From Spirochaetota bacterium (GTDB lineage Bacteria; Spirochaetota; UBA4802; JAFGJZ01), in the NCBI GenBank assembly GCA_027858855.1, contig JAQIBV010000007.1, positions 1 through 64,000 on the forward strand: a DNA stretch of 64,000 nt, read 5' to 3'. The position numbers and the translations under genes were made by a program. This document shows, piece by piece, positions 19,899 to 23,072 of the stretch (its first letter is position 1; the number at the start of each line of letters is the position of its first letter). The notes beneath the pieces are model-generated. The model ran no database searches and was not told the DNA's origin. It saw only the letters and a list, made by a program, of their open reading frames with translations.

Positions 19899-21329
19899 AT
19901 GGCGGTTTCTCTTTCCATAGGCTTAAAACAGTCACAGCGTCTTGCCATGACGCAGAGCTTGAGACAATCTATAGAGATGCTTCAGCTATCTACATTGGAA
20001 CTTGCTGAGACTATTTCTCATGAGCTTGAAACGAATCCTATCCTTGAAGAAGTGGCTACTTCTGAAGATGTAACATATAACGATGAATTAATTCAGGACA
20101 TGAATCTCCAACTTTCGGGTGATACCTCGAAGGCTGATCGTATTGAAGAACGTGATCGCGATTTCGGCAATACAAGTGATGCCGGGTTTCAAAAAAGTTA
20201 TGACGATGACCGAAAGCAGCAGGCTATTGAGAATGCCTTTGTTGAAAGGGAGTCTCTTGCCGACCATCTGACCGCTCAGGTTCGTGTGCAGAAGGGCTCA
20301 GAAGAAGAGATCGACTTTTTGGTGACGCTCATATCCCTTCTTGATGATAATGGTTTTTTTACCGATAATTACCAGACCTTTTGTAAAGAACAGTCTGTTA
20401 CTACCGACTATCTTATAGGATGTTTAAAGAAAATTTCGTTTCTTGAACCGGTTGGCTGTGGTGCCTCGTCAGTACAGCAGACACTTCTGTGGCAGTGTGA
20501 AAGCAGGTATCCCGATGATGATATATTATGCACAATGATTCGTGAGTATTTTGATCTGCTTTCGAAGTTGTTTTACGATCAGATTTCAAAAAAAATGGAT
20601 TTACCGGTTGATCTTATAATTAAAAAAAGTACATTGATTCAGGGGCTCTCTCCCTATCCTGGCAGGCTTTTTTCAAAAAAAGAGACAAACTATGTTATTC
20701 CCGAGTTGGAAGTTCACTATGTAGATGATCAGATAATTCTGATGTTCTATGACGATTGGATTCCACGGGTGAAAATCAACAGCTATTATACCAGTATGGT
20801 TGCGTCTTCCAAGATTGATAAAGAGATTAAAAAATACATTCGTGAAAGAATTAATTCTGCGAAATATCTATTGCGCAGTATTTCCGGCCGTCGTGAAACA
20901 ATCGAAAAGGTTGTTCGCGCAATTATGGAGTTTCAGACCGATTTTCTGCAAAAAGGTCCGGGCCATCTTAAGCCACTTATTCATGCTGATATTGCCGATC
21001 ATACAGGGTTTAACGAGTCGACAATTAGCCGGGTTACTTCGAATAAGTATGTTCAGACATCCTGGGGTATTTTTGAACTGAAATATTTCTTTGTTACCCG
21101 TGTAAATTCAGAAAATAGTGATCAATCTTCTGATAATGTGCTAAAACTAATACAGGATATTATTACCGGCGAAGACCCTGAAAATCCTTTTACAGATGAG
21201 CAGATTGTCAGTCGTCTGGACAAGGCCGGTATCCAGACTGCCAGACGAACAATTGCAAAGTATCGTGGTGTCCTTAACATTCCTTCTTCAACAAAGAGGA
21301 AACGAATAAATAAGTTAAAAATGGAGTGA
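19899..21329 (+). CDS. rpoN: RNA polymerase sigma-54 factor
   Basis: 476 aa. Region I, the activator-interacting glutamine-rich segment, is intact (QSQRLAMTQSLRQSIEMLQL). An acidic region II follows. The core-binding and helix-turn-helix parts (STISRVTSNKYVQTSWGIFE) precede the RpoN box ARRTIAKYRGVLNIP, which reads the -24 element. It needs an AAA+ activator such as the one encoded 5 kb downstream. hpf begins 4 nt after its stop, as in many bacteria. Confidence 0.97.
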   Translation: MAVSLSIGLKQSQRLAMTQSLRQSIEMLQLSTLELAETISHELETNPILEEVATSEDVTYNDELIQDMNLQLSGDTSKADRIEERDRDFGNTSDAGFQKSYDDDRKQQAIENAFVERESLADHLTAQVRVQKGSEEEIDFLVTLISLLDDNGFFTDNYQTFCKEQSVTTDYLIGCLKKISFLEPVGCGASSVQQTLLWQCESRYPDDDILCTMIREYFDLLSKLFYDQISKKMDLPVDLIIKKSTLIQGLSPYPGRLFSKKETNYVIPELEVHYVDDQIILMFYDDWIPRVKINSYYTSMVASSKIDKEIKKYIRERINSAKYLLRSISGRRETIEKVVRAIMEFQTDFLQKGPGHLKPLIHADIADHTGFNESTISRVTSNKYVQTSWGIFELKYFFVTRVNSENSDQSSDNVLKLIQDIITGEDPENPFTDEQIVSRLDKAGIQTARRTIAKYRGVLNIPSSTKRKRINKLKME

Positions 21330-21333
21330 ACGT

Positions 21334-22119
21334 ATGAACCTAAGAATTACAGGAAGACATGTCTCAGTTTCGGAAAAACTAAAGGAGCATGTAGAAAAAA
21401 AGGTTTCAAAAATCGAAAAGTATTTTAATCAAATTATCTCGGTTGAGGTAATCATTTTCGAAGAGAAGGTGGATAAAGTAGTAGAAATAATAATTCATGC
21501 TGATGGCGCAAAATTTTACAGCTCTGATAAGTCAGGCGATTATTACAGTTGTGTCGATTCGTTAATCGATAAGCTCGATCAGCAAATCAAAAAGCATAAG
21601 GAAAAGTTACAGCAGCATAAAGGTCCTGGTACCGGACATATGCCGATTATTGATCTTGCAGGTGATGATCATGAATCTGTCGCTGTAATTGAGGCATCTT
21701 CGAAACCTCTGAATTTTAAAGAAGCCTACCTTGAGTTGAAATTAGAAAATGATGGATACATTCTTTACAAAAAAGACAATGAAGATATTGATTATGCTAA
21801 TCATAATTATGCTTTGCTCTACGAAGATGATAAAAAATATGTTATGGTCGAAATTCCAGATGAGATGATTAAGAATAAATCTTTCAACGGCAAGTTAAGC
21901 TGTTTTGAACTTGATATAAAGAGTGACTCTGCGACTGATCCACAGATAGATTTGAAGGCAACAGATAAGGATATAGCTACCTTAAATATTAATCAGGCAA
22001 TTGTGGCACACGAGCAGAGTAATAACAAGTTTTTTCCTTTTTACAATACTGAATCGTCGTCGCTTAACCTTTTGGTTAAACGTTCAAATCAGCTTGAGAT
22101 CGTTGTTCCGGCACAATAG
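21334..22119 (+). CDS. hpf: Ribosome hibernation promoting factor, extended form
   Basis: 261 aa, longer than long-form HPF (about 180-190). Residues 1-95 are the ribosome-binding domain (LRITGRHVSVSEKLKEHV onward). Residues 118-174 resemble the dimerising C-terminal domain in a divergent form (KPLNFKEAYLELKLENDGYI, then YALLYEDDKKYVMVEIP). Residues 212-259 look like a second copy closer to the family pattern (AIVAHEQSNNKFFPFYN, then LLVKRSNQLEIVVP). It blocks the decoding centre in stationary phase and pairs 70S ribosomes into 100S dimers. Follows rpoN by 4 nt; hprK follows after 2 nt. Confidence 0.85.
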   Translation: MNLRITGRHVSVSEKLKEHVEKKVSKIEKYFNQIISVEVIIFEEKVDKVVEIIIHADGAKFYSSDKSGDYYSCVDSLIDKLDQQIKKHKEKLQQHKGPGTGHMPIIDLAGDDHESVAVIEASSKPLNFKEAYLELKLENDGYILYKKDNEDIDYANHNYALLYEDDKKYVMVEIPDEMIKNKSFNGKLSCFELDIKSDSATDPQIDLKATDKDIATLNINQAIVAHEQSNNKFFPFYNTESSSLNLLVKRSNQLEIVVPAQ

Positions 22120-22121
22120 TT

Positions 22122-23072
22122 ATGGTTCAGAAGCTTTTTTTACGAGATTTGCTGTCTAATCCTGAGGATACACAGTTGCACATGGTCTCCCTAACGGGAG
22201 AGATGGGGCTTGGAAGAGAAATTGACAGTGCAGATATAAACCGGCCGGGGCTTAGCCTCGCCGGTTTTTTTGACCATTTTGCCGGTAATCGTATTCAGGT
22301 ATTTGGTAAGGGAGAGAGTGCCTACATAGACTCACTTTCTCATAATGAGGCAATCGAATCGTTTAAAAAATTTTTTTCGTTCAAGGTATTCTGTACTATT
22401 TTTACTCATAGCAAACGCCCTCCTGATATTTTTCTTGAATTAGCTGAAAAAAATGGAACACCTGTTTTTGTTACTGATTTGACAACAGCGTCCTTTATTC
22501 GTTTACTGCACCATGTTGTATCGGAGACTCATGCCCCTCAGAAGAATATCCATGGAACCCTGGTTGATGTTTTTGGTCTTGGTGTGCTGATAATAGGATC
22601 AAGCGGAGTGGGTAAGAGCGAGGCTGCACTGGAACTGATAGAGCGGGGGCATCGCCTTATTGGTGATGATATCGTTAATGTAAAATGGGTAAAAGAGTCA
22701 ATGCTGGTAGGGCAGGGATCCAAGTTTATCCGTCACCACATGGAGATTAGAGGTCTTGGCATTTTGAATGTGACCGATGTATTCGGTATTGGTTCTGTTC
22801 GTAACCGAAAACGAATTGAGCTTGTCGTAAAACTGGAGTTATGGGATGATGACAAAGAGTATGAGCGGTTAGGGCTCTCTGAAACCCATTATAACCTTTT
22901 GGGAATGGAAGTCCCCTATGTTTTATTACCAGTCAGACCAGGAAGAAATATCCCGATACTGATTGAAAGTGCTGCATTGAATCAGCGCTTGAAAAAGATG
23001 GGTGTGTACTCGGCCCAGGAGCTTGATAAGCGCATACAGGAATGGATAAAGTTGGAGAGAAGTGATGGTTGA
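22122..23072 (+). CDS. hprK: HPr kinase/phosphorylase
   Basis: 316 aa, normal length. Residues 1-130 form the N-terminal domain. The kinase domain has H144 (IHGTLVDV), the Walker A loop GSSGVGKSE (159-167) and the D182/D183 pair (LIGDDIV). The signature EIRGLGILNVTDVFGIGSVR (208 onward) governs the phosphorylase reaction. It phosphorylates HPr on Ser46 with ATP or PPi and reverses this in response to phosphate and sugar phosphates. The target ptsH overlaps its 3' end by 8 nt. Confidence 0.96.
   Translation: MVQKLFLRDLLSNPEDTQLHMVSLTGEMGLGREIDSADINRPGLSLAGFFDHFAGNRIQVFGKGESAYIDSLSHNEAIESFKKFFSFKVFCTIFTHSKRPPDIFLELAEKNGTPVFVTDLTTASFIRLLHHVVSETHAPQKNIHGTLVDVFGLGVLIIGSSGVGKSEAALELIERGHRLIGDDIVNVKWVKESMLVGQGSKFIRHHMEIRGLGILNVTDVFGIGSVRNRKRIELVVKLELWDDDKEYERLGLSETHYNLLGMEVPYVLLPVRPGRNIPILIESAALNQRLKKMGVYSAQELDKRIQEWIKLERSDG

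Follow-up and report, generated by a model that had tools for sequence, protein, structure and literature searches.

What becomes of ribosome pairing when a single chain of a hibernation-promoting factor (HPF) carries two C-terminal domains (CTDs)? The question is raised by an open reading frame in the window, the 64,000-nucleotide stretch of spirochaete DNA analyzed here. A sequence-only reading had placed this frame at 21334-22119, and its position and length are confirmed. The surplus of about 75 residues noted there agrees with ~71-79 residues in excess of single-CTD HPFs (182-190 aa). The gene, its parts and its direct neighbors are listed below.

19899..21329, plus strand: rpoN-like gene (sigma-54), upstream neighbor (ORF and reading of sequence)
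21334..22119, plus strand: hpf, tandem-CTD hibernation-promoting factor, 261 aa (ORF and domain scans)
21343..21612, plus strand: S30AE N-domain, residues 4-93, the ribosome decoding-center domain (Pfam PF02482, E 1.6e-23; TM to HPF structures 0.8-0.9 of target)
21622..21678, plus strand: linker, residues 97-115, fast-evolving and of low confidence (pLDDT <50 at 92-114; dN 0.35)
21679..21858, plus strand: CTD1, first long-HPF C-terminal domain, residues 116-175 (hhalign 98.0% to single CTDs; PDB CTD alignment; AlphaFold2 strands and helix)
21859..21942, plus strand: connector, residues 176-203 (AlphaFold2; dN 0.21)
21898-21924, plus strand: extra predicted strand in the connector, residues 189-197 (AlphaFold2, confident)
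21943..22113, plus strand: CTD2, second long-HPF C-terminal domain, residues 204-260 (PF16321 21.2 bits, below the cut-off; hhalign 97.8%; AlphaFold2)
22122..23072, plus strand: hprK-like gene (HPr kinase), downstream neighbor (ORF and reading of sequence)

The N-domain is of the ordinary S30AE type, and the protein belongs to the HPF/YfiA superfamily (PF02482 83.7 bits, cut-off 23.7; TIGR00741 86.8, cut-off 40.9). In this family the N-domain blocks the decoding center. The S30AE_C domain, which follows the linker in long HPFs, is present in two copies by profile and lies below the cut-off in single-sequence Pfam scans. In such a scan only CTD2 is detected (21.2 bits, cut-off 25), and residues 103-182 give no PF16321 signal.

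An alignment of 72 tandem relatives was split into separate CTD1 and CTD2 profiles, and single-CTD HPFs of Streptococcus and Ureibacillus served as the comparison set. Matched to this set by hhalign, the CTD1 profile reaches 98.0% (score 61.0) and the CTD2 profile 97.8% (score 54.3). The two family profiles match each other at 89.6% with a score of 30.2; the maximum over 100 column shuffles is 13.0 and the reversed profile scores 10.9, which rules out chance likeness. A CTD1 profile built from the order of the window genome alone still matches Firmicute single CTDs at 94.2%. At this level the match of CTD1 to CTD2 is weak (17%), and the link between the copies needs the wider family. When the whole-protein profile is compared with PDB sequences, the CTDs of 6t7o, 5nko, 3ka5 and 3k2t align on the CTD1 columns (E ~1e-8 to 1e-7; 9e-9 for 6t7o). 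Several relatives have both copies above the Pfam cut-off in one ORF (G107, 33.3 and 37.3 bits; G223, 31.1 and 33.9 bits; G182, 31.3 and 39.8 bits). These relatives and the profile matches together establish the two tandem CTDs that the sequence-only reading had claimed.

Residues 118-174, proposed as one CTD copy, are indeed such a domain. A mere spacer in their place is ruled out by the PDB-aligned columns, the predicted strands and the hhalign match. The second domain proposed at residues 212-259 is also present, but it starts earlier, as its first strand (204-210) precedes residue 212. The first copy had been described as divergent and the second as the better one. This holds for Pfam on the single sequence but not at the family level, where CTD1 is by profile score slightly closer than CTD2 to ordinary HPF CTDs. 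The KP-EA motif is kept in CTD1, and the KP motif is absent from CTD2.

AlphaFold2 predicts two strand-helix-three-strand units in the full protein (pLDDT 76.9, from a shallow alignment of 7 sequences, all from the relatives whose loci were fetched), two CTD folds per chain and not one, in agreement with the profiles. Two of the five AlphaFold2 models were poor. CTD1 comprises strand 117-120, helix 128-138 and strands 142-147, 159-165 and 168-173, with a loop insertion between its second and third strands. The best PDB match of the full model is RafH (8wi7_w, E 6.7e-12), and the 286 alignment columns run through both CTDs. The overall r.m.s. deviation of 23.8 is large, as a different placement of the N-domain would lead one to expect. 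Folded alone, the CTD pair has a pTM of 0.76, and RafH 8wi7_w is its only PDB match below 1e-3 (TM 0.59, r.m.s. deviation 5.0, 153 columns). Single-CTD crystal structures reach TM values of 0.26-0.30. The value for RafH is about twice as high, so both copies superpose at once and are predicted to be arranged relative to each other as in RafH. Packing of the two folds like an HPF CTD dimer is thus a predicted property (TM 0.59 over the pair). Matches of the pair to glyoxalase-like folds are below significance and were set aside.

Where a long HPF has a single CTD, pairing of two chains occurs through a hydrophobic face of the sheet and involves a swap of the first strand; in this way two 30S subunits are bridged into 100S (PMC5620043, PMC5620080, PMC6177447). 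Most of the interface positions defined in T. thermophilus (PMC6177447) hold a hydrophobic residue in each of the two copies of the window protein. The positions comprise Y142, L144 and the L161-L162-Y163 region in CTD1 (register uncertain by one) and F233, P235, L244, L246 and V248 in CTD2. The chain sequences used for comparison came from PDB 8whx (RafH) and 6gzx (a CTD). Interface position V160 is a proline in CTD2 of the window's order, which counts against self-pairing. The second strand of CTD2 (22027-22047, residues 232-238, FFPF) contains a proline where T. thermophilus HPF has a valine, and this proline is the commonest residue at its position among the aligned relatives.

In RafH, the two CTD folds of a single chain associate in the manner of a dimer. 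Its authors concluded that further dimerization is not possible and that 70S monosomes are hibernated, not 100S dimers; the RafH CTD itself is an AlphaFold2 model that was docked into density of low resolution (PMC10799931). For the window protein we consider it probable that it is likewise a RafH-type, self-paired long HPF, whose CTDs pack in cis and which hibernates single 70S ribosomes. The dimerization domain of a long-type HPF would have been duplicated. The N-domain would block the decoding center, and CTD1 and CTD2 would pack together in one chain as a pseudo-dimer, as two HPF chains usually pair. With the dimer surface spent in cis, 70S monosomes would be hibernated and no 100S bridge would form. 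The protein would sit at the 30S platform, as RafH does. This reading draws on the HPF-type nature of both copies, the predicted RafH-like superposition, the hydrophobic interface, the predicted connector strand, the equal constraint on the copies (see below) and the genome, in which neither RMF nor a second HPF was found. From these we infer the monomeric state and the platform binding site, and by analogy with RafH the 70S outcome. The sequence-only reading had suggested that the two domains could fold together inside a single chain. The prediction supports this, since the modeled pair superposes as a whole on the RafH pseudo-dimer, and by the same analogy it is plausible that such self-pairing would block ribosome pairing.

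The hydrophobic faces mostly kept in both copies could, however, serve two chains that swap domains (CTD1 with CTD2') and build a larger bridge, so that 100S would still be formed. It is through this surface that single-CTD HPFs pair (PMC5620043), and the genome has no RMF to pair ribosomes. We regard this as unlikely, as the predicted cis packing matches RafH and the connector holds a predicted strand. Less probable still is a loosely packed pair in which one CTD is freed for another job and binds a different partner, e.g. a protein or an rRNA helix. The loop insertion in CTD1 of the window's order, the lack of the KP motif in CTD2 and the separation of CTD1 and CTD2 in the tree would fit such a role, and S. 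aureus HPF reportedly binds another protein (PMC9522360). But the insertion is not common to all relatives, whereas the tandem is phylum-wide, and fold and packing positions are kept in both copies. The linking of at least three ribosomes into a chain by two CTDs that act as independent hooks, also suggested by the sequence-only reading, would require copies that face apart. Apart from the presence of two copies nothing favors this arrangement. The copies are predicted to be packed on each other in cis, with a confidently predicted strand in the connector, and we consider chaining highly improbable.

In the genome of 3.35 Mb, the ORF at 21334-22119 is the sole HPF match detected; searches of the same genome gave no match for RMF or a second HPF. 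The tight co-directional run around hpf reads pyrG - rpoN - hpf - hprK - ptsH - two-component genes, where the neighbors are named from reading their sequences alone and not from a domain scan. Four bases separate the rpoN stop from the hpf start, and a GGAG-like ribosome site overlaps the rpoN end (21325-21340). Only two bases lie between the hpf stop and the hprK start (22117-22124). This spacing of rpoN, hpf and hprK suggests coupled translation.

Both copies are conserved. Within the order, 42 of 46 genomes have a full-length match. In the remaining four, the gene is cut off by a contig end (one genome), is split by an apparent frameshift (one) or codes for the N-domain alone (one, 107 aa), and an incomplete genome gave no match at all. 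Across the phylum, 27 of ~54 sampled spirochaete families have the tandem form, counted by hand from the labels of fetched and aligned loci. An assembly artefact or one-off fusion is thereby ruled out. Several other spirochaete families have only frames of N-domain length (~100-145 aa). Among 120 Bacillota genomes, 116 have one clear S30AE_C domain each (77-115 bits) and none of these 116 has a tandem CTD, which rules out the tandem as a common feature of long HPFs in Bacillota. Between the window protein and an 80%-identical relative, for which synonymous sites are saturated, the non-synonymous distance is 0.08 in the N-domain, 0.21-0.35 in the linkers and 0.12 in both CTD1 and CTD2. Because the latter values are equal, CTD1 is as constrained as CTD2.

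Individual relatives deviate. In G030 (L101, ~1160-1200), hpf is split near G and T runs into two overlapping frames, a 107 aa N-domain and CTD1-CTD2; this is either a sequencing or assembly slip or a real division into a separate N-domain and CTD pair. The HPF of G003 (L100) is a 107 aa N-domain without both CTDs, and hprK and ptsH still lie downstream. The metagenome-type genome G021 has two full-length tandem HPF genes (contigs C251 and C259), either paralogues of recent origin or the result of two strains in one bin.

With a pairing domain that is doubled in many of its families and seems to satisfy itself, the phylum would be a natural experiment on the open question whether 100S pairing has a value beyond the plugging of ribosomes. 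An HPF with a doubled, self-paired CTD may have been inherited early in much of Spirochaetota, which would hibernate only single 70S ribosomes; 100S would have been given up phylum-wide by way of a domain duplication that either ran parallel to that of mycobacterial RafH or is common to both. We hold this wider reading tentatively, with belief and doubt close to balance. In the literature searched, no report of a tandem-CTD HPF in spirochaetes was found, and the only HPF structure from a spirochaete that turned up is of the short form, from Borrelia (PMC10618245). A survey from 2026 on the evolution of HPF relied on the PF16321 profile, which sees the copies of the window protein poorly. As Pfam finds only CTD2, and that below the cut-off, such factors can pass for short or single-CTD HPFs, a warning to surveys that tandem-CTD HPFs may be miscounted.

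Compared with known systems, the protein shares the N-domain with short HPF/YfiA, including Borrelia HPF (PMC10618245), and 70S hibernation is expected in both; the short forms, like the 107 aa form that is the only one in G003, have no CTD. With the single-CTD long HPFs of S. aureus, B. subtilis, L. lactis and T. thermophilus it shares the N-domain and a CTD of the same family (~98% for each copy), whereas in those proteins (182-190 aa) a single CTD pairs with that of a second chain, which gives 100S. The closest likeness is to RafH of M. smegmatis (PDB 8WHX/8WI7; PMC10799931), with N-domain, linker and two CTD folds in one chain of ~260 aa; RafH is the top PDB match for the full model and for the CTD pair. 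The tandem-CTD HPF is a kind already known through RafH. Sequence identity to RafH is low (12%), however, and the connector strand and the CTD1 loop insertion are extra in the spirochaete protein. Copy-to-copy profile scores weakly favor CTD1 with the first and CTD2 with the second RafH copy, and the CTD tree (63 columns) has weak forks; the duplication may be shared with RafH or separate in origin. Mycobacteria also have MPY, whereas the spirochaete protein is the sole HPF found in its genome, and the spirochaete form is widely spread in its phylum. RafH would no longer be a peculiarity of mycobacteria but one example of a broader class.
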